In this document: positions 1,008-30,351 of the stretch, one piece after another | How positions within the stretch are numbered: the stretch's first letter is position 1 | Layout of the letters: each line of letters starts with the position of its first letter | Origin: Marinitoga hydrogenitolerans DSM 16785 | GTDB lineage: Bacteria > Thermotogota > Thermotogae > Petrotogales > Petrotogaceae | DNA length: 36,287 nt | Assembly: GCF_900129175.1 (NCBI RefSeq) | Contig: NZ_FQUI01000021.1 | Span: 1-36,287 of the forward strand | Direction of reading: 5' to 3' | Program-made: the position numbers and the translations under genes | Notes under the pieces: generated by a model | Database searches by the model: none | The model's input: the letters and a program-made list of their open reading frames with translations, nothing else | Told to the model about the DNA's origin: nothing

Positions 1008-1100
1008 ATGAAAAAAAATTATTTAAGTTTTGCTAATAATATAAATTCAAATATAATATTAAGACATCGCTCAAGGTGTGGCTTCATGCTGACACCTTGA
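1008..1100 (+). CDS. Leader peptide with arginine control codons (30 aa)
   Basis: This small ORF is too short for standard gene calling. It has a strong Shine-Dalgarno sequence (CGGAGGGA, 995-1002) six nt before the ATG and reads MKKNYLSFANN, then INSNIILRHRSRCG, then FMLTP. Residues 19-23 are Arg-His-Arg-Ser-Arg (AGA CAT CGC TCA AGG, 1062-1076), directly before and into the first arm of a set of alternative hairpins. The TGA stop (1098-1100) falls inside the second arm. CGC and AGG look uncommon in this AT-rich DNA, which would sharpen stalling. The role is inferred: the ribosome acts as an arginine sensor, and the peptide itself probably has no function. Confidence 0.8.
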   Translation: MKKNYLSFANNINSNIILRHRSRCGFMLTP

Positions 1101-1161
1101 GTTGTCATATTAACTCAAGGAAAATCAGAAGCCACACCTTGTAAAGGTGTGGCTTTTTTTT
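1070..1161 (+). promoter_or_regulatory. Ribosome-mediated transcription attenuator, arginine type
   Basis: Four mutually related elements are visible. Arm 1 (1070-1079) pairs perfectly with arm 2 (1092-1101). Arm 2 extended (1095-1103) pairs perfectly over 9 bp with arm 3 (1112-1120), loop GTCATATT. The terminator pairs 1131-1140 with 1144-1153 and is followed by eight T residues. An antiterminator is possible because 1073-1085 is perfectly complementary over 13 bp to 1128-1140, the terminator's 5' arm. A ribosome stalled at the Arg codons would block 1:2 and leave the distal part of arm 1 free to capture the terminator arm. A ribosome reaching the stop codon would cover arms 1 and 2 and let the terminator form. 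The mechanism is inferred from pairing only. Confidence 0.8.
1131..1161 (+). terminator. Attenuator terminator of leader 1
   Basis: GCCACACCTT (1131-1140) and AAGGTGTGGC (1144-1153) form a 10-bp GC-rich stem with a GTA loop and a T8 tract. It lies 40 nt upstream of the first structural gene, so it must be conditional. Confidence 0.9.
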
Positions 1162-1200
1162 ATACAAAAATAAATTTAATTATATGGAGGTGTGGTTGAT

Positions 1201-1977
1201 ATGAAAAAGTTTATTGGTATCTTATTAGTAGTTATTTTTGCACTTGTTGGTTTTAGTGGAAAAATTGAGGAAATTCAAAAACGTGGTGTTTTATTAGTTG
1301 GTCAAGATCCAGCCTATGCTCCTTTTTATGGTGTAAATGAAAAAGGTGAAAGAATTGGATACGAAATTGAATTAGCAAAAATGATGGCTGATGTTTTAGG
1401 TGTAAAGGTAAAATTTGTTATTACAAATTGGGATGGAATCATTCCTGCTCTATTATCAAATAAATTCGATTTTGTTTTAGCTGGCATGACAATAACCCCT
1501 GAAAGAGCTTTAAAGGTTAACTTTACTACAGCGTATTATGAAACAGGACAAACTGTTTTTTATAATAGCGAAAAATATCCTAACGGTATTACCTTTGAAG
1601 ATTTAAAAAAGATGGGTAGTAAGGTTAAAATAGCTGTACAACTTGGAACTACAGGAGAATTTACAGCAGAAAAATTATTCCCAGAAGCTAAAATTTTAAC
1701 CTTTGAAACAGTAGATGCTGCAGCATACCAAATAATCACTAAAAAAGCTGATATTTTGATTTTTGATGAATTATATTATGGTTCCATTTCAAAAAAATAT
1801 CCATCAATTAAGGTTTGGAATAAACTCTTAAATAAAGAAAAACTTGGAATTGCTGTAAAAAAAGATAACCTGGATTTATTATTATGGTTAAATACTTTTA
1901 TAGAATGCAAAAAAACTGACGGTACTTTGGAACAATTAAAACAAAAATGGATGGTAGACTACGATTGGGGTGAATAA
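1201..1977 (+). CDS. Polar amino acid ABC transporter, substrate-binding protein 1 (predicted arginine/basic amino acid)
   Basis: This 258-residue periplasmic binding protein belongs to SBP family 3. A signal peptide covers about residues 1-19 (MKKF then a hydrophobic stretch ending VGFSG) and there is no lipobox cysteine. Family hallmarks are the VLLVGQDPAYAPFYG segment at the first strand, NWDGIIPAL, and MTITPERALKVNFT, whose Arg102 normally binds the ligand alpha-carboxylate. The start at 1201 is preferred over an upstream GTG at 1192 that touches the GGAGG; with 1201 the length equals that of its paralogue at 3616. It is the first gene of the operon, overlapping or abutting the permease. 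Arginine specificity is inferred from the leader codons and not from pocket residues. Confidence 0.88.
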   Translation: MKKFIGILLVVIFALVGFSGKIEEIQKRGVLLVGQDPAYAPFYGVNEKGERIGYEIELAKMMADVLGVKVKFVITNWDGIIPALLSNKFDFVLAGMTITPERALKVNFTTAYYETGQTVFYNSEKYPNGITFEDLKKMGSKVKIAVQLGTTGEFTAEKLFPEAKILTFETVDAAAYQIITKKADILIFDELYYGSISKKYPSIKVWNKLLNKEKLGIAVKKDNLDLLLWLNTFIECKKTDGTLEQLKQKWMVDYDWGE

Positions 1978-1978
1978 G

Positions 1979-2719
1979 TTGAACAAAAATTACTTACAAA
2001 AATTCATAGCTTATGCTGTATTAATATTCATATTAACTGTTTTTTATATGGAAATGTCTAAAACATATCCTTTTAACTGGCAAAGAGTACCATTTAAATA
2101 TATGAATTTATATCTTCAAGGATTTTATATGACGTTAAAAATTTCTGTTTTTTCTGTTTTATTCGCATTGATTATCGGCATTATATTTGGTGTAATGAAA
2201 ACATCTAAATATCAAATTTTAAAAGAATTTGCCAACACTTATACAACTATTTTTAGAAATATTCCATTATTGGTAATTATTCTCATTGTATATTATGGCA
2301 TTGGTTCTATGATTGAAATAAGTGCAACAATTGGCGCAATTGTATCATTATCTTTATTTGAAGGTGCTTATATATCAGAAATTATTCGAGGTGGCATAGA
2401 GGCTGTGTCAAAAGGGCAGGTTGAAGCGGCAAAAACCATAGGATTAAATACCTTTTATTTATATATAGACATATTATTACCACAGGCTTTTAGAACAACT
2501 TTACCTGCTTTAACTGGACAATTCATAAGTCTAGTCAAAGATAGTTCTCTTGCATCTGTTATAGCTTTACAGGAATTAACTATGGTCGGGAGGCAGATTG
2601 CCACCTCCTCCTTTGCATCATTTGAATCATATATAACGGTAGCTATATTTTATTTTACGATAACAGCACTTTTACAATTATTAGGTAAATATTTCGAGAG
2701 GAGGTTTGCAATAATATGA
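1979..2719 (+). CDS. Polar amino acid ABC transporter, permease
   Basis: This 246-residue inner-membrane protein is of the HisM/GlnP type, with about five membrane segments. The cytoplasmic EAA loop is visible as EAAKTIGLNTFYLYIDILLP, the coupling segment that docks on the ATPase. I take the TTG at 1979 as the start because GGGGTGA (1967-1973) is spaced correctly for it; a GTG at 1970 lacks a ribosome site. One permease gene is present, so the transporter would use a homodimer. It follows the first binding protein almost without a gap and overlaps the ATPase gene by ATGA. It probably also serves the second binding protein downstream, which has no permease of its own in this window. Confidence 0.9.
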   Translation: MNKNYLQKFIAYAVLIFILTVFYMEMSKTYPFNWQRVPFKYMNLYLQGFYMTLKISVFSVLFALIIGIIFGVMKTSKYQILKEFANTYTTIFRNIPLLVIILIVYYGIGSMIEISATIGAIVSLSLFEGAYISEIIRGGIEAVSKGQVEAAKTIGLNTFYLYIDILLPQAFRTTLPALTGQFISLVKDSSLASVIALQELTMVGRQIATSSFASFESYITVAIFYFTITALLQLLGKYFERRFAII

Positions 2720-3411
2720 TAGAAATAAAAGGTCTAGAAAAAAGTTTTGGCAAGTTAGAAGTATTAAAAGGCGTAAATCTAAAGGTTTCAAAAAGTGAGG
2801 TTTTAGTAATTATGGGGCCTTCTGGATCTGGCAAATCTACATTATTAAGATGTATTGCTGGATTAGAAGAATATGAAAAGGGTATCATAATATTGGAAGA
2901 AAAAAATGTATTAGATTATACAAGAAAAACATTAGTTCAAAAAATAGGGTTTGTTTTTCAACAACATAATCTTTTTCCACATTTAAAGATAATTGATAAT
3001 ATTTCATTAGGCTTAATTAGAACAAAAAAAATGAAAAAAGATGAAGCCTATGAAAAAGCTTTAGACGTTTTAGATAAAGTCCATTTAAAAGATAAAGCTT
3101 ATAATTATCCTTCTCAATTATCCGGAGGACAACAACAAAGAGCTGGTATTGCAAGAGCATTAGCAATGGATCCTGAAATTTTATTATTTGATGAACCAAC
3201 ATCTGCTCTTGATCCAAGTTTAGTATATGAAGTAAAAGAAACTATGGTTGAATTATCGAATATGGGAAAAACAATGATTGTAGTAACTCATGAGGTTGAT
3301 TTTGCAAAAAAAGCTGGAGATAGAATTATATTTATGAAAGATGGAAAAATATTAGAAAATATGGATCCTGAAACTTTTTTTAAAAACGAATTAAAATACG
3401 AAATAGCATAG
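2716..3411 (+). CDS. Polar amino acid ABC transporter, ATP-binding protein
   Basis: This 231-residue ATPase is of the HisP/GlnQ type. Walker A is GPSGSGKST (residues 34-42), the Q-loop is in FVFQQHNLFPHL, the ABC signature is LSGGQQQRAGIARAL (from residue 135), Walker B is ILLFDEPTSALDP (about 155-167), and the switch histidine is in VVTHEV. It is slightly shorter than the roughly 240-residue family norm, but all motifs are intact. The start overlaps the permease stop (ATGA) and is preceded by GAGAGGAGG, implying translational coupling. The next element, 20 nt after the stop, is the second leader peptide, so transcription of this gene probably continues into that attenuator. Confidence 0.94.
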   Translation: MIEIKGLEKSFGKLEVLKGVNLKVSKSEVLVIMGPSGSGKSTLLRCIAGLEEYEKGIIILEEKNVLDYTRKTLVQKIGFVFQQHNLFPHLKIIDNISLGLIRTKKMKKDEAYEKALDVLDKVHLKDKAYNYPSQLSGGQQQRAGIARALAMDPEILLFDEPTSALDPSLVYEVKETMVELSNMGKTMIVVTHEVDFAKKAGDRIIFMKDGKILENMDPETFFKNELKYEIA

Positions 3412-3431
3412 AATGAAAAGGAGGAAATAAT

Positions 3432-3521
3432 ATGTATAATATCGCTAAATATTATTTATATTTAAAAAATACAAATTCATTACATCATCATTTAAAGTGT
3501 GGCCTAAGGCTGACACTTTGA
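3432..3521 (+). CDS. Leader peptide with histidine control codons (29 aa)
   Basis: A 29-codon ORF with an AAAGGAGGAAA ribosome site lies 20 nt after the ABC ATPase stop. It reads MYNIAKYYLYLKNTNSL, then HHH, then LKCGLRLTL. The three consecutive CAT histidine codons (3483-3491) sit immediately 5' of the first hairpin arm. The TGA (3519-3521) lies in the second arm, the same geometry as leader 1. Three tandem histidines in a short leader are the classic sign of histidine-responsive attenuation. I see no separate promoter, so it probably responds to read-through from the upstream transporter genes. Confidence 0.83.
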   Translation: MYNIAKYYLYLKNTNSLHHHLKCGLRLTL

Positions 3522-3583
3522 GTTGTCATATTAACTCAAGTGTAATCAGACAATGGCCACACCTTAAAAGGTGTGGCTTTTTT
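3492..3583 (+). promoter_or_regulatory. Ribosome-mediated transcription attenuator, histidine type
   Basis: Arm 1 (3492-3500) pairs with arm 2 (3513-3521), including one G-U pair. Arm 2/3 pairing uses 3518-3524 with 3533-3539 and the loop GTCATATT, identical to leader 1. The terminator pairs 3556-3565 with 3568-3577, followed by T6. The alternative antiterminator pairs GTGTGGCC (3497-3504) with GGCCACAC (3555-3562), which includes most of the terminator's 5' arm. The layout repeats that of leader 1, including a shared 21-base block (1099-1119 equals 3520-3540), so the two are duplicates whose control codons diverged. It would uncouple the second binding protein from the upstream transporter genes. 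Confidence 0.8.
3556..3583 (+). terminator. Attenuator terminator of leader 2
   Basis: GCCACACCTT (3556-3565) pairs with AAGGTGTGGC (3568-3577), followed by six T residues. It stands 33 nt before the second binding protein gene. Confidence 0.88.
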
Positions 3584-3615
3584 AATATTATAAAAAACTT
3601 TATGGAGGTGTTAGT

Positions 3616-4392
3616 ATGAAAAAGTTTATTGGTATTTTAGTAGTAGTTATTTTTGCATTTGTTGGTTTTAGTGGGAAAATTGAGGAAATTCAAAAACGTG
3701 GTGTTTTGTTAGTAGGGCAAGATCCGGCTTATGCTCCTTTTTATGGAATAAACACAAGTGGCGAACGAATAGGTCACGATATAGCTTTCGCAAAAATTTT
3801 ATCTGACTTTTTAGGTGTAAAAGTAAAATTTGTCATAACAAATTGGGATGGAATTATCCCCGCACTAATGACAAATAAGTTCGATATTATTTTAGCTGCA
3901 ATGACAATTACCCCAGAAAGAGCTTTAAAGGTCAATTTTACTATACCTTATTATCAAACAGGACAAGCTTTAATGTATAATTCAAAAAAGTATCCTGACG
4001 GACTTTCTATTAAAAAAATTAACGAGATGGGAAAAAAAGCTAAAATAGCTGTTCAATTAGGTTCAACAGGTGAAATTGCAGCAAGAAAATTTTTCCCTAA
4101 TGCTAGTATATTAACATTTGAAACAGTAGATGCCGCAGCATATCAAATAATTACCAAAAAAGCTGACGCAATTATATTCGATGATTTATATTTTGGCAGT
4201 TTATCAAAAAAGTATCCTTCAATTAAAATGTATGATGAGTTATTAACAAAAGAAAATCTTGGAATTGCTGTAAAAAAAGATGATATTGATTTGCTTCTAT
4301 GGTTAAATACAGTTATAGAGACCTTAAAAACTGATGGAACATTAGAACAGTTAAAACAAAAGTGGATAATAGACTATAGCTGGGATAAATGA
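3616..4392 (+). CDS. Polar amino acid ABC transporter, substrate-binding protein 2 (predicted histidine)
   Basis: This 258-residue SBP family 3 protein is a close paralogue of the product of 1201-1977. The two are near-identical in the signal peptide and over long blocks such as KIEEIQKRGVLLVGQDPAYA and TFETVDAAAYQIITKKAD. Differences cluster where the ligand should lie: FDIILAAMT against FDFVLAGMT, TIPYYQTGQALMY against TTAYYETGQTVFY, and GSTGEIAARKFFP against GTTGEFTAEKLFP. That pattern fits duplication followed by a change of substrate. It has no adjacent permease or ATPase of its own, so it most likely shares the upstream ones, as HisJ and ArgT share HisQMP in enteric bacteria. Histidine specificity is inferred from the HHH leader. 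Confidence 0.87.
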   Translation: MKKFIGILVVVIFAFVGFSGKIEEIQKRGVLLVGQDPAYAPFYGINTSGERIGHDIAFAKILSDFLGVKVKFVITNWDGIIPALMTNKFDIILAAMTITPERALKVNFTIPYYQTGQALMYNSKKYPDGLSIKKINEMGKKAKIAVQLGSTGEIAARKFFPNASILTFETVDAAAYQIITKKADAIIFDDLYFGSLSKKYPSIKMYDELLTKENLGIAVKKDDIDLLLWLNTVIETLKTDGTLEQLKQKWIIDYSWDK

Positions 4393-4442
4393 TTAAAATA
4401 AAATTAACATTAGATTACCAAAATATAATTGTAAAAAAACTC

Positions 4443-4471
4443 TTGACTTTTTATAATATATATGCTAAAAT
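4443..4471 (+). promoter_or_regulatory. Promoter of the glutamate/proline operon
   Basis: TTGACT (4443-4448) and TAAAAT (4466-4471) are separated by 17 bp, with a TGC extended -10 motif at 4463-4465. They lie 46 nt upstream of the third leader peptide ATG. Confidence 0.82.
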
Positions 4472-4516
4472 GTAATAAAGGTTATCTTTACTATTTATAG
4501 GTGATTGGAGGCCATT

Positions 4517-4621
4517 ATGTTCTTTCTAACAATTAAATCTCAATATAATATAACAAATACATTAAATAATCAACCCGAACCCAAGGTGTGGTCTTTGCAG
4601 CACCTTAAGTTCGGTGTATAG
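4517..4621 (+). CDS. Leader peptide with proline/glutamate control codons (34 aa)
   Basis: A 34-codon ORF follows a TTGGAGG ribosome site. It reads MFFLTIKSQYNITNTLNN, then QPEP, then KVWSLQHLKFGV. The Gln-Pro-Glu-Pro codons (CAA CCC GAA CCC, 4571-4582) directly precede the AAGGTGTGG element, the same place as the control codons of leaders 1 and 2. CCC looks like an uncommon proline codon here, since CCT and CCA dominate the neighbouring genes. The downstream operon makes glutamate precursors and proline, so the codons match the product. Its TAG (4619-4621) lies beyond arm 2, in the loop of the 2:3 hairpin. Confidence 0.8.
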   Translation: MFFLTIKSQYNITNTLNNQPEPKVWSLQHLKFGV

Positions 4622-4683
4622 TTAAATTTTAACTTAAGGCAATCAAAGGCCACGCTTTTAATCAAAGTGTGGCCTTTTTTTAT
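4575..4683 (+). promoter_or_regulatory. Ribosome-mediated transcription attenuator, proline/glutamate type
   Basis: Arm 1 pairs with arm 2 as CCGAAC (4575-4580) with GTTCGG (4609-4614) and AAGGTG (4583-4588) with CACCTT (4601-4606). Arms 2 and 3 pair perfectly over 9 bp (4603-4611 with 4631-4639). The terminator pairs 4645-4658 with 4664-4677, 14 bp with one G-U, followed by a T tract. The antiterminator pairs 4583-4596 with 4645-4658, 14 positions with three G-U pairs. This is the same four-part logic as leaders 1 and 2 with partly diverged sequence, so the pairing has been kept while bases changed. Confidence 0.8.
4645..4683 (+). terminator. Attenuator terminator of leader 3
   Basis: A 14-bp stem (4645-4658 with 4664-4677) with loop TAATC and a T-rich tail ends just before the citrate synthase ribosome site. 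Confidence 0.88.
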
Positions 4684-20579: not shown

Positions 20580-20591
20580 TTCTCAAGCTTT
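20564..20591. terminator. Convergent terminator overlapping two gene ends
   Basis: A perfect 11-bp stem (20564-20574 with 20581-20591) has a TATAAT loop. The helicase stop codon lies in the loop, and the last codons of the reverse-strand regulator lie in the other arm. T-rich flanks are modest. Confidence 0.6.
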
Positions 20592-21701
20592 AATATTTAT
20601 TCCTTTGGTTAAATATTTTGATAGCTCAAATAAAAATTTCTTTTTATCCTTTATCGTATTTTCAAATAAATATTCAATACCTGTATAATGAGAGATTCCC
20701 ATTAAATACATAGCTGTTACTTCTTTGTTTTTATTTTTAATATTTCTTAAATGTTTTATATAACCCTTTTTAAATTCTGCATAATATTCTCTTACTTCAT
20801 TATTAACTACAAATTCTGCTTCTCTGATTATTTCATAATAGTTTTTATTCCGTTTAAAAAACTCCAAGAATAAATATATACCTATTAATTCCTTTTCTAA
20901 TCTGTTTAAGTCTAAAGGTAAATTCTTTGATATGAATAATCGCGTTTTATGCCCTATTTGTCTAACAATTTCTTTTAAAAATTCTTCCTTACTAGGGAAA
21001 TATATATAAAATGTTCCCACTGCCAAACTTACATAATTAGTAATTTCAAATATTTTTACCTTGTAATACCCTTTTTGGCTAAATAAATCTATACCTGCAT
21101 TTATTAATAACTGTTTTGTTGTTTTTTCTTCTTCTTCACATTCTTTGATATCAAAATCAAACAATTTATTATCATTAGTTTTTTCAAAAAAAACTCCGTT
21201 AAATACTATATCAAAAAAATCTTCCACATTCATATTAATCCAACCATATGAAGACATAATACCTAAAAATCTTAAACCACCAATTATGTAAATATAATCG
21301 ACCTCAGTTATTTCTCTATCTAAAATCCTTTTTAGTATATCAATATATAAATTCCTTAGTTCTTTTTCATATTGGGGGAATCTATATTGTCCTTCTCTAA
21401 AAATTGTGACTAATGTTTTATACTTTTTGGCTGCACCAAATACTATATTAAAAAAAGATTTAAGTTTCTCTTTTTTAGTATTACCAGAATATTTATAAAA
21501 TTCATTTTTAAGAACCTCTAATAGATAATTAAGTAAATATTCAAACAATTGTTGTTTGTTTTTGAAATAATTATAAAACACTCCGTTTGAAAGATTTGCA
21601 TTTCTACAAATCTCTGCGACTGACACTGTTTCATACCATTTTTTTGAAAATAATTCTATAGCTGAATCAATTATTTTTTCCCTTATATTAGCTTTTCTCA
21701 T
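20583..21701 (-). CDS. Tandem (double) TetR-type transcriptional regulator
   Basis: This 372-residue protein carries two complete TetR-like units. The first DNA-binding domain is at about residues 5-53 (IIDSAIELFSKKWYETVSVA, ending SNGVFYNYFKNKQQLF). The second is at about 193-241 (LLINAGIDLFSQKGYYKVKI, ending AVGTFYIYFPSKEEF). Each is followed by an all-helical ligand-type domain. Ordinary TetR proteins have one unit of about 200 residues and dimerise, so this looks like a duplication fused in one chain. The ATG at 21701 has GGAG 8 nt upstream. It is the last gene of the Liv/KAS III operon, 18 nt after the hydrolase, and likely regulates it. The ligand is unknown; an acyl-CoA or the transported compound is plausible. 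Confidence 0.85.
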   Translation of the reverse strand: MRKANIREKIIDSAIELFSKKWYETVSVAEICRNANLSNGVFYNYFKNKQQLFEYLLNYLLEVLKNEFYKYSGNTKKEKLKSFFNIVFGAAKKYKTLVTIFREGQYRFPQYEKELRNLYIDILKRILDREITEVDYIYIIGGLRFLGIMSSYGWINMNVEDFFDIVFNGVFFEKTNDNKLFDFDIKECEEEEKTTKQLLINAGIDLFSQKGYYKVKIFEITNYVSLAVGTFYIYFPSKEEFLKEIVRQIGHKTRLFISKNLPLDLNRLEKELIGIYLFLEFFKRNKNYYEIIREAEFVVNNEVREYYAEFKKGYIKHLRNIKNKNKEVTAMYLMGISHYTGIEYLFENTIKDKKKFLFELSKYLTKGINIKA

Positions 21702-21719
21702 AATAACAACTCCAAACTT

Positions 21720-22472
21720 TTAAAAATTTCTCAACTCATTTATAAACAACTCTGGATCCTCTACAATAATTGAATGTCCAATATGATCAAACATTTTTAA
21801 TTCTCCATTTAAATATTTCAATGTTTCTTTAGCCATTGCTTCTGTAATTAATAAATCTTTTTTACCAAGTATAAATAATACCTTATTTTTATAGTTTTTT
21901 GCAATATCTGTATAATCATATTTTTCTAAAGCTCTGGCATTTCCCGCAAAACAGTTTTCGTTCATCAAAAGAGCATCATTTGTAAGTTCATCCAATAATT
22001 TTTCATCCTTATTTTCTGGCATAATAGATTTTAACGCTGTTTTTAAAAGAGTTTTATTACCCTTATACATTTCTAAAACAGGATAATTCTCTTCTGGTGT
22101 TTTTAATCCATTTATAGGGGAAGAATCTATTAAAAGCAGTTTTTCGCTTTTTTCAGGATATCGAAAAGAGAGAGATTGAGCTACAGCACCTCCCAACGAG
22201 TGTCCTACAATTATAGCTTTTTCAATTTTTAATTTATCCATAAACATTTTTACATAATCAGCATATAAATCTATATCACACTTTTCTATTCTATCAGATC
22301 TTCCAAAATTTGGCAAATCCAAAGCAAATATTTTAAATCCTTCAATATTCATAACTTTTTGAAACCATCGTGCAGATGCAAAATTCCCATGTATCATTAT
22401 AACAGTTTTCCCATTTCCATTTTCATAATAATAAATATTTTTTCCATTAATTTTAACATATTTTCCATTCAT
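21720..22472 (-). CDS. Alternative internal start: stand-alone alpha/beta hydrolase
   Basis: The ATG at 22472 within the LivM-hydrolase frame has a near-ideal TGGAGGGA upstream and would give a complete 250-residue hydrolase with Ser92, Asp206 and His233. The fold begins right at this ATG (KYVKINGKNIYYYENGNGKT). Whether the cell makes the fusion, the free enzyme or both cannot be read from DNA. The substrate is unknown; context suggests an ester, amide or lactone related to what the transporter imports. Confidence 0.6.
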   Translation of the reverse strand: MNGKYVKINGKNIYYYENGNGKTVIMIHGNFASARWFQKVMNIEGFKIFALDLPNFGRSDRIEKCDIDLYADYVKMFMDKLKIEKAIIVGHSLGGAVAQSLSFRYPEKSEKLLLIDSSPINGLKTPEENYPVLEMYKGNKTLLKTALKSIMPENKDEKLLDELTNDALLMNENCFAGNARALEKYDYTDIAKNYKNKVLFILGKKDLLITEAMAKETLKYLNGELKMFDHIGHSIIVEDPELFINELRNF

Positions 22473-23420
22473 CTTTTTATCCCTCCATAATTTCTTTTTA
22501 AAGGCCACATATGGTATTTCAAAATATTTAAAATACGAAATAATTAAGCCATACATAATGCCTTTTGGAAAAAACAAAACAAAAATTATCAGCAACCCTC
22601 CAAATATCAAAGACATTGGTATGTTTGATCTAGAAAAAATAAATGGCAATCCTGTAATTACAATAGCTCCTATTAGCCCACCATGTATTGACGATATTCC
22701 ACCTATAATAATCATAGCCAATAAATTTAATGATGTTGCTAATCCAAAATCCGTTGGTGAAATATACCCCATTGTATGAGCATACAAAGTACCTGCAATT
22801 CCTCCATATATTGCACTAATGATAAAAGCATGAAGTTTTATATAAGATATATTAATCCCATACGCCCTTGAAGCTATTTCACTTTCTCTAATCATTTTAT
22901 ATTTTAATCCAATTGGCGATTTTGTCAAAACAATAGCAAAATAAGATAATAAGACATAAAAAATTAAATTTATTATGTATATGCCAAAATCATTTTTTAT
23001 TAAAGGAGGTATATCTCTTAATCCTACATGTCCTCCTAAAAAATCAAAAGCTCCTATTAATTGTTCAACAGCTATTCCAAATGCCATTGTTGCAATAGCT
23101 AAATAAAATCCTCTTAATCTCAATGCGGGTAAACCTATTATAATTCCTAAAATTGCAGATAATAACATCGCTATAATTAAATTAATAAAAAAAGGTATAT
23201 TATATGTAAGGGTTAAATATGCTGTGGTAAAAGCTCCTATTGCCATAAAGGCACCATGCCCTATAGAAATCTGTCCTGTATATCCAGAAATTATATTTAA
23301 ACCCAATGCTGAAATAGCAAATATTAATATACTTGATAATATCAATAATATAAAAGGTTTTGATAAAAATAAAATTCCTATTAATATCCCTATAAATAAT
23401 ATATAAATAGATTGCTTCAT
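21720..23420 (-). CDS. LivM-type ABC permease fused in frame to an alpha/beta hydrolase
   Basis: One open frame of 566 codons encodes a LivM permease (about residues 1-316) joined to an alpha/beta hydrolase (about 317-566). The permease part has NIISGYTGQISIGHGAFMAIG and IIIGGISSIHGGLIGAI, family hallmarks. The hydrolase has HGNFASARW (oxyanion region), the nucleophile elbow GHSLGG (Ser408), Asp522 in GKKDLL and His549 in HIGHS. There is no stop codon between the parts. A TGGAGGGA ribosome site stands 7-8 nt before an in-frame ATG at 22472, so a separate 250-residue hydrolase could also be made. The ATG at 23420 is preferred over a TTG at 23438 because it is preceded by GGGAGAG and lies one nt after the livH stop. 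Confidence 0.85.
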   Translation of the reverse strand: MKQSIYILFIGILIGILFLSKPFILLILSSILIFAISALGLNIISGYTGQISIGHGAFMAIGAFTTAYLTLTYNIPFFINLIIAMLLSAILGIIIGLPALRLRGFYLAIATMAFGIAVEQLIGAFDFLGGHVGLRDIPPLIKNDFGIYIINLIFYVLLSYFAIVLTKSPIGLKYKMIRESEIASRAYGINISYIKLHAFIISAIYGGIAGTLYAHTMGYISPTDFGLATSLNLLAMIIIGGISSIHGGLIGAIVITGLPFIFSRSNIPMSLIFGGLLIIFVLFFPKGIMYGLIISYFKYFEIPYVAFKKKLWRDKKMNGKYVKINGKNIYYYENGNGKTVIMIHGNFASARWFQKVMNIEGFKIFALDLPNFGRSDRIEKCDIDLYADYVKMFMDKLKIEKAIIVGHSLGGAVAQSLSFRYPEKSEKLLLIDSSPINGLKTPEENYPVLEMYKGNKTLLKTALKSIMPENKDEKLLDELTNDALLMNENCFAGNARALEKYDYTDIAKNYKNKVLFILGKKDLLITEAMAKETLKYLNGELKMFDHIGHSIIVEDPELFINELRNF

Positions 23421-23421
23421 A

Positions 23422-24300
23422 TTAAACTCTCCCTTCAAAACCTTTTGAAAAAATGCCAGAAGGTTTAACTATAAGCATTACAATAATTAATATTAAAATT
23501 ATTGATAATTGAAAATCTGGTGAAATATAAATACCAACTATTTTTTCTAAAACACCTAAAATAATTCCACCGAATATTGCCCCAAACAAGCTGGAAAAAC
23601 CTCCTAAAACACCAGCAGTAAAACCATATAATTGCATATTAACCATCATATTAGGATGAATATATTCTTTTGGAGCTATTAAAACAGCTACTAAAGAAGA
23701 TAACATTATTCCTATACCCCATACTATTGAATCTATTTTATCTACACTAATACCTACCACTTCAGCACCAACTTCGTCCTGAGCTCTTGCTCTAATAGCT
23801 ATACCCAATCTCGTAAATTTTAAAAAAAATGCCATTATTATAGCTATTGAAAAAGCTATTATAGTTATCCAAAAATCATTAATAGGCATAACCAATATAT
23901 TTTCTCCTAAATTTATTATTATTGGCATTCCTGTAAACAATTCTGGAAAAGATTGATAATCTGTACCCCATATCAATACACTTAATCCTTCAAATATCAT
24001 TAATAGTCCCAAAGTAACTATTAGCATTCCACCATGAGAAATATGCTTAATAGGTTTTAATAATTTATCTATTAAAAAACCAAGAAAATAACCAAATATC
24101 AATGCTGATAAAATGGAAACAATCAAACTATGTGTTAATGTATAAATCGAAAAAGCAAAAAATGCTGCAATCATTCCTGCATGTCCATGTGCAAAATTCA
24201 TTACACCTACTGTGTTAAAAATAATTGCAATTCCAAATGCCATTAATCCATATAATGCTCCCTGAGGAATTCCTAAGATTATCCCTTGGAGAATCCACAT
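23422..24300 (-). CDS. livH: Branched-chain-type ABC transporter permease LivH
   Basis: This 292-residue inner-membrane permease has GIPQGALYGLMAFGIAIIFN and GVMNFAHGHAGMIAAFFAF near the N-terminus and GFTAGVLGGFSSLFGAIFGG near the C-terminus, the LivH hallmarks. The ATG at 24300 has AGGTGAG upstream; a TTG at 24315 lies inside the livF end and has no site. The gene is 4 nt from livF and 1 nt from the LivM fusion, so translation is coupled. Members of this family move branched-chain amino acids, amides, urea or aromatic acids, so the substrate is open. Confidence 0.9.
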   Translation of the reverse strand: MWILQGIILGIPQGALYGLMAFGIAIIFNTVGVMNFAHGHAGMIAAFFAFSIYTLTHSLIVSILSALIFGYFLGFLIDKLLKPIKHISHGGMLIVTLGLLMIFEGLSVLIWGTDYQSFPELFTGMPIIINLGENILVMPINDFWITIIAFSIAIIMAFFLKFTRLGIAIRARAQDEVGAEVVGISVDKIDSIVWGIGIMLSSLVAVLIAPKEYIHPNMMVNMQLYGFTAGVLGGFSSLFGAIFGGIILGVLEKIVGIYISPDFQLSIILILIIVMLIVKPSGIFSKGFEGRV

Positions 24301-29550: not shown

Positions 29551-29568
29551 TTTTGAGAGGTGATTCAT

Positions 29569-30351
29569 ATGTTTTTTGAAAAAAAAGGGATATATTATGA
29601 AATTTATGGTGAAGGAAAACCACTTATTTTGCTTAATGGTATAATGATGAACACTTTAAGTTGGGCATCTCATATTAAAGTTTTGAGTAAATATTTTAAA
29701 ATTATTGTATATGATATGAGAGATCAGGTAAGATCAGAAAAATTAGAAGAAGATTATGACATATCCATTCATGTTGAAGACTTACATAATTTTATAATTC
29801 ATCTTGGTTTAGAAAAAGTAAATATTTTAGGATTATCATATTGAGGTCAGGTTGCAGAATTATTTGCTATAAAATATCAAAAAATGATAGATAAATTGAT
29901 ATTATCAAATACTACTTATAAAATTGATAATTATCTATATGCAATTGGCGAAGCATGGAAAATTGCTGCAAAAACGTATGATGGTGAAATTTTTTTTGAT
30001 TTGGCTTTACCTTTTATATACTCTAAAACTTTTTATAATGAAAAATTGGAATGGTTGATGAATAGAAGAAAGTTATTTAAAGATATATTAACAAAAGAAT
30101 GGTTTGATTCTTTTATTAGACTAATTTCTTCGAATACTACTTTTGATGTTTCAAATAAAATAGAAAAAATTAATGTACCAACATTATTGATTGCTGCAGA
30201 AGAAGATATTCTTACTCCTGTTAAGGATATGGAATATATTAATTCAAAAATCAAAACATCAAATCTTGTTGTTATAAAAAATTCAGGTCATGCTGCATTT
30301 TTAGAAAAATTTAAAATATACTGTAATCTAATTAAAGGATTCCTATTATAA
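29569..30351 (+). pseudogene. Alpha/beta hydrolase interrupted by an in-frame TGA at its nucleophile elbow
   Basis: A hydrolase of 260 residues would run from the ATG at 29569 (GAGAGGTGAT upstream) to the stop at 30349-30351, but codon 92 (29842-29844) is TGA. The flanks read ILGLSY, stop, GQVAELFA. The expected elbow is G-L-S-Y-G-G, so the change is GGA to TGA, one base. The other catalytic parts remain in frame: Ser90, an Asp in AAEEDILTP and a His in NSGHAAFLEK. Everything else is intact, suggesting a recent nonsense mutation or a base-call error. It is divergent from the KAS III operon and might act on a related compound. I see no support for selenocysteine. Confidence 0.8.

Follow-up and report, generated by a model that had tools for sequence, protein, structure and literature searches.

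How the supply of a few amino acids is sensed in a thermophile genome is the question raised by one stretch of Marinitoga hydrogenitolerans DSM 16785 DNA (36,287 nucleotides; hereafter the window). Within it, three short open reading frames (ORFs), each followed by a set of hairpins, stand ahead of a polar amino-acid transporter with its substrate-binding protein (SBP1), of a second binding protein (SBP2) and of a glutamate/proline operon. We consider it very probable (roughly 0.86) that these three leaders, called L1, L2 and L3 in 5'→3' order, are ribosome-mediated, or leader-peptide, transcription attenuators that would answer starvation by read-through. The source genome (labelled G000; 2.3 Mb, 100% complete, with the window as its contig C21) looked Thermotogae-like in a first-pass annotation made from the letters of the window, and it does belong there: it is a Marinitoga, and its citrate synthase is 83% identical to the counterpart in Marinitoga lauensis, its nearest named relative.

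The three leaders, which like all the features described below lie on the forward strand, were found at the positions given by that annotation. Leader peptide 1 (1008–1100, 30 amino acids, MKKNYLSFANNINSNIILRHRSRCGFMLTP), leader peptide 2 (3432–3521, 29 amino acids, MYNIAKYYLYLKNTNSLHHHLKCGLRLTL) and leader peptide 3 (4517–4621, 34 amino acids, MFFLTIKSQYNITNTLNNQPEPKVWSLQHLKFGV) are each preceded by a strong Shine–Dalgarno sequence of the GGAGG type. Each also carries, as had been claimed, a block of control codons immediately 5' of a stem block common to the three, namely AGA CAT CGC TCA AGG (Arg-His-Arg-Ser-Arg, 1062–1076) in L1, His-His-His (3483–3491) in L2 and CAA CCC GAA CCC (Gln-Pro-Glu-Pro, 4571–4582) in L3. 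With background amino-acid frequencies, the chance of meeting such a block in a 30-residue peptide is 9 × 10−5 for HHH, 1 × 10−4 for the R/H-rich pentad and 1.4 × 10−3 for four consecutive Q, P or E residues with at least two prolines. Rare codons occur among the control codons (CGC, CCC and CAC; 0.8, 1.2 and 1.7 per thousand in the window genes). The promoter of L1 (952–980, TTGACA-17-TATAAT with TG before the −10 element) matches the consensus at 12 of 12 positions, and the likely promoter of L3 (4443–4471, TTGACT-17-TAAAAT, again with TG before the −10 element) does so at 10 of 12. L2 begins only 20 nt past the stop codon of the ATPase gene and the promoter scan revealed no convincing promoter for it, so it appears to be an attenuator within an operon.

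The RNA of all three leaders is predicted to fold much more stably than shuffled sequence, with z values of −7.1 (L1), −5.8 (L2) and −6.8 (L3). The 1:2, 2:3 and terminator hairpins noticed at first pass are present in each of them, but a long-range pairing, A:B, had been missed, and hairpin 2:3 is nested within it. Segment A follows the control codons (1073–1085, AAGGTGTGGCTTC, in L1; 3494–3504, AAAGTGTGGCC, in L2; 4583–4597, AAGGTGTGGTCTTTG, in L3); its sequence is complementary to that of the terminator's 5' half (segment B) and almost the same as that of the 3' half (segment D). Segments 2 and 3 are the arms of the nested hairpin. In L1, segment A lies within the ORF as the putative 5' arm of the antiterminator, segment 2 (1092–1103) can pair either with A and the control region or with segment 3 (1112–1120), and the intrinsic terminator (1127–1157) is made of B (1128–1140) and D (1144–1156) and runs into a T tract. 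The same elements recur in L2, with 3513–3524 pairing with 3533–3543 in the 2:3 hairpin (3513–3543) and the B:D terminator at 3555–3578, and in L3, where 4600–4611 pairs with 4631–4639 (hairpin 4600–4639) and the terminator (4644–4677) joins B at 4644–4658 to D at 4664–4677. An independent terminator scan recovered all three terminators, placing that of L3, which folding also gave, at 4645–4677. With at most one mismatch allowed, 17 copies of the 9-mer AAGGTGTGG were counted where 3.1 would be expected, a number reached in 0 of 100 shuffles.

A covariance search of related genomes, as the first-pass annotation had proposed, was run over 38 genomes of the order Petrotogales with a model built from the three window leaders and their M. 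lauensis counterparts. In the source genome it matched exactly three leaders with stems of this type. Reverse-strand matches to two of them were discarded as echoes of the palindromic leaders, and the matches of model R1 in one other genome (G003; loci L094, L102 and L107) as what look like ordinary terminator-like hairpins devoid of control codons. The conservation counts rest on 17 leaders from seven Marinitoga genomes, that is, the source genome and six more. Conservation of the small ORFs and their control codons in relatives had been named beforehand as a test of the idea, and both are kept: L1 and L3 occur in all seven genomes and L2 in three of them. The control codons of L1 read RHHSR in six genomes and RHRSR in the source genome (motif RH[HR]SRCG in 7/7), those of L2 are HHH in 3/3, and those of L3 are QPEP in 6/7 and EPEQ in the remaining one (G027). 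The N-terminal part of the leader peptides varies in length and sequence, and the Shine–Dalgarno–ATG start is always in frame with the control codons. Pairing is retained in 206 of 221 cells of the alignment for A:B, 138 of 153 for 2:3, 192 of 221 for 1:2 and 209 of 221 for B:D, and all four helices contain compensatory changes. These include C-G to U-A in the terminator, G-C to A-U in the core of 1:2 in the L2 of the window, changes at two positions of A:B, and a G-C pair of 2:3 in L1 and L2 that is A-U in L3; the last agrees with the earlier view of the leaders as paralogues whose stems differ between L3 and L1–L2 while the pairing persists.

The arrangement of these helices bears directly on how the leaders may switch. 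None of the 17 leaders shows any overlap between segment 3 and the terminator arm B, and because segment 3 lies outside the terminator, the 1:2, 2:3 and terminator hairpins alone cannot constitute a switch. In 17/17 leaders the stretch that pairs with B has its centre 6 to 8 nt past the control codons. Transcripts ending before D fold as A:B enclosing 2:3, and in most leaders 1:2 plus B:D is the fold of the full-length transcript; A:B and B:D, both conserved, are mutually exclusive through their common strand B. On sequence grounds the predicted antiterminator is the long-range 1:4 (A:B) pairing, 2:3 alone being insufficient. A classical scheme, in which 2:3 itself would act as antiterminator and A:B would merely follow from the repetition of sequence between A and D, might draw on the good conservation of 2:3 and on the classical layout of the Petrotoga-type trp leaders of the same family, but we judge it improbable: clear of B as it is, segment 3 gives 2:3 no means of blocking the terminator by itself, and A:B is not only conserved in Marinitoga but recurs with unrelated sequence in the transporter leaders of a sister family (13/13) and in the Petrotoga-type his leaders (9/9).

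The course of the leader ORF fits attenuation through A:B. Beyond the control codons it extends for another 28–54 nt (9–18 codons), crossing A and 2, and its stop codon lies in or beyond segment 2. A ribosome placed at the stop codon masks A and 2 and reaches B in one leader only (L103, a borderline case). With the ribosome on the first control codons A stays accessible; a few codons further along it is masked. From the ORFs, control codons, structures, conservation and synteny, all read from the sequence, we infer stalling, switching and the direction of the response as follows. When the cognate aminoacyl-tRNA is scarce, the ribosome would stall on the control codons, sensing Arg and His in leader 1, His in leader 2 and Pro, Glu and Gln in leader 3. 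Its footprint would block the 5' part of 1:2 and leave segment A free; 2 would then pair with 3, and A with B, before D is transcribed, and RNA polymerase would read through. With an ample supply of the amino acid, the ribosome would proceed through A and 2, masking A up to the stop codon, after which hairpin 1:2 would keep A engaged, B:D would form and transcription would end. Leader 1 would in this way gate the transporter operon, leader 2 would be a second gate within the same operon, providing a His-specific check on SBP2, and leader 3 would gate the synthesis of proline from glutamate.

Several observations weigh against this interpretation. The codon-position bias is mixed, with an excess of third-position changes in L1, Kosmotoga-like and his leaders only and none in L3 or the Mesotoga-like leaders. 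The control codons of L1 and L3 lie within the 5' arm of 1:2, and part of them could therefore be conserved by the structure. The Marinitoga leader set comes from a single genus, the substrates of SBP1 and SBP2 are themselves predictions, and the sharp cut-off in ribosome position is partly built into the folding calculation. Finally, at equilibrium the terminator is usually the preferred fold of the full transcript, even when a ribosome occupies the control codons; the switch would therefore have to be kinetic, A:B being in place before D appears. The folding of transcripts that stop short of D does agree with a choice of structure set by the position of the ribosome.

The strong conserved RNA structure and the mixed codon-position bias might also suit a riboswitch, a T-box or an attenuator governed by an RNA-binding protein, the ORFs being then incidental or coding for small functional proteins. 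This is very unlikely, since a scan with 4227 Rfam models (release 15) detected no family in the window at the gathering score and, in related loci at E ≤ 1, spurious matches only, and since the control codons vary with the regulated genes (HHH, WWW, KKHVK, QPEP). Least credible of all are constitutive intergenic terminators with a fixed read-through ratio and translated but non-regulatory ORFs, for which the intra-operonic position of leader 2, where partial terminators are frequent, and the equilibrium folding might speak, but which would need neither A:B, 2:3 and 1:2 nor the control codons, all conserved and with compensatory changes in the helices.

Leader-peptide attenuation, the reading we prefer, is also consistent with the genes that follow the leaders, and these proved to be of the kinds named at first pass. 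L1 precedes SBP1 (1201–1977), a cationic-type amino-acid-binding protein according to sequence and structure-database matches, an ABC permease of a polar amino-acid transporter (1979–2719; HEQRo_perm_3TM above cut-off) and an ABC ATPase of the GlnQ/HisP/ArtP type (2716–3411). SBP2 (3616–4392), a paralogue of SBP1 with 75% identity, follows L2 and is predicted to serve histidine import. The closest PDB entry to both proteins is AncCDT-1, an arginine-binding protein (3k4u is also close to SBP1), and among NCBIfam models the Lys/Arg/Orn family scores best for both, though it does not reach its cut-off. Separately, in the deposited M. lauensis sequence a change of frame interrupts the SBP1 gene (L001:2900–2960), which may point to gene decay or to an error in sequencing. 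The operon behind L3 (4699–11792) contains citrate synthase, the large and small subunits of an aconitase-family enzyme, proC, proA, proB and an ORF of the isocitrate dehydrogenase (IDH) family, named from its sequence only. L3 stands ahead of citrate synthase in 7/7 Marinitoga genomes, and the route from citrate through glutamate to proline fits the Gln, Glu and Pro control codons.

The transporter locus exists in three states in the genus: L1–SBP1–permease(–ATPase) in G025 and G026, L1–permease–ATPase–SBP2 type in G024 and G027, and L1–SBP1–permease–ATPase–L2–SBP2 in the source genome (G000), G022 and G023. The presence of L2 only where both binding proteins coexist suggests a duplicated and retuned cassette. 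HisG was found in none of the seven Marinitoga genomes, ArgH scores stayed at paralogue level (at most 82 bits, where the cut-off is 279.5), and LeuA was likewise not found. Marinitoga is thus apparently unable to make arginine or histidine and may be expected to import them, the need being read by leaders 1 and 2; the switch for His/Arg import would in this way be linked to the apparent loss of both syntheses.

Three further observations concern the rest of the window. Judged by eye, a single ORF at 20583–21701 apparently holds two TetR-like regulator halves in tandem, with two similar N-terminal motifs, and an ORF at 21720–23438 resembles a fusion of a LivM-type permease with an alpha/beta hydrolase. 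At 29560–30351 an alpha/beta hydrolase-like gene seems to be split into two ORFs, either because the gene is broken or, perhaps, through an error in sequencing.

The claim that the control codons match the downstream genes could be followed beyond the genus, independently of the building of the covariance model, and there too it finds support. In a sister family of Petrotogales, where the SBP1 orthologue has 46–51% identity, a leader precedes this gene in all 13 loci with usable upstream sequence; at a fourteenth locus (L158), whose contig reach upstream is unchecked, no leader was seen. The control codons are HHH in one group of that family (HHR in one genome) and KKHVK in another, and the terminator (CCGGGC/GCCCGG) belongs to a leader with the same layout of A:B around 2:3 and an unrelated stem sequence. 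Within Petrotogaceae, nine genomes have HHH leaders upstream of the hisG region (L131–L139), with the A:B layout in 9/9, and nine have trp leaders upstream of trpE (L120–L128) that read ...NWWWHL(G) or ...TWWWHL and show the classical layout; a tenth genome carries MKTLKNNWWWKIRVRR at this position (L129). With WWW before trpE and HHH before the his genes, the control codons track the regulated pathway across the family. His leaders with HHH or HHHH (L178–L193), such as LVHHHVFDPVASPPGV and HHHHRFGPAVSPPGV, are found in other Thermotogota families, and outside Petrotogaceae their A-to-B complementarity is not clearly above that of shuffles. Other searches gave nothing: no Leu leaders were found upstream of leuA, and the 1.5 kb ahead of proB, scanned in 16 other genomes, contained no Pro leader, although the operon may start further away. 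Distant SBP homologues (32–38% identity) in 14 genomes of other Thermotogota families had no upstream candidate with control codons. In Marinitoga no Trp leader was seen upstream of trpE, which directly follows another gene in the three loci inspected.

From these comparisons we somewhat favour the view that the leaders represent a distinct class of attenuator distributed across Petrotogales, with the 1:4 pairing formed around 2:3 and its antiterminator arm placed within the leader ORF. The class would have been recoded in the course of evolution, the sister-family transporter being read by Lys/His or His codons, the Marinitoga cassette being retuned from Arg/His to His, and L3 co-sensing Pro, Glu and Gln. 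Attenuation itself may be an old mode of regulation throughout the phylum, as the His leaders in several Thermotogota families would suggest. If this is true, leader-peptide attenuation extends to a thermophile phylum, where it would imply a tight coupling of transcription to translation, and the recoded control codons ahead of orthologous transporters offer a natural series for substrate prediction.

The first-pass annotation had regarded ribosome-mediated attenuation as best known from enteric bacteria and as not well described in Thermotogae. On the second point, a search of the open-access literature gave reports of leader-peptide attenuators in Proteobacteria, Actinobacteria and Firmicutes and none in Thermotogae; the first point needs to be widened by the leader-peptide attenuators of Actinobacteria (PMC1262725) and by candidates in Firmicutes. 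The latter, known from comparative genomics, include his attenuators (PMC9413887) and hisS/hisZ leaders (PMC2965389) and, to go by their description, resemble ours in having runs of His codons upstream of attenuator and terminator hairpins outside Proteobacteria, although they belong to another phylum. In Salmonella, the mgtCBR leader senses proline (PMC3641672); by its description it is similar in that operon transcription is governed by the translation of an ORF within a long leader region, but its target is an operon for Mg2+ transport and virulence, not for the synthesis of proline or glutamate. Closer in taxonomy are the Petrotogaceae trp leaders (L120–L128), the same device in the same family, with WWW and the terminator GGGCATCCC/GGGATGCCC; they differ in that the stop codon lies 9–12 nt past the Trp codons and the antiterminator arm comes after the stop.

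With the trp and his attenuators of enterobacteria the Marinitoga leaders share a Shine–Dalgarno sequence and short ORF, tandem control codons, mutually exclusive hairpins, an intrinsic terminator and, as predicted, read-through on starvation. The canonical enterobacterial regions pair as I:II, II:III and III:IV (PMC1183508). The Marinitoga leaders depart from this topology, because their antiterminator shares B through A and not through segment 3: it is a 1:4 pairing whose arm lies within the ORF after the control codons and would be freed by the nested 2:3, and between the control codons and the stop codon, which falls in segment 2 or after it, there are 9–18 codons. Such a layout would let passing ribosomes mask the antiterminator directly, which is near a design principle derived from theory (PMC1183508). 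The targets differ as well, with transporters and a mixed Pro/Glu/Gln operon among them. The class of mechanism is already known from these systems, while its topology, its specificities and the taxon in which it occurs look new.

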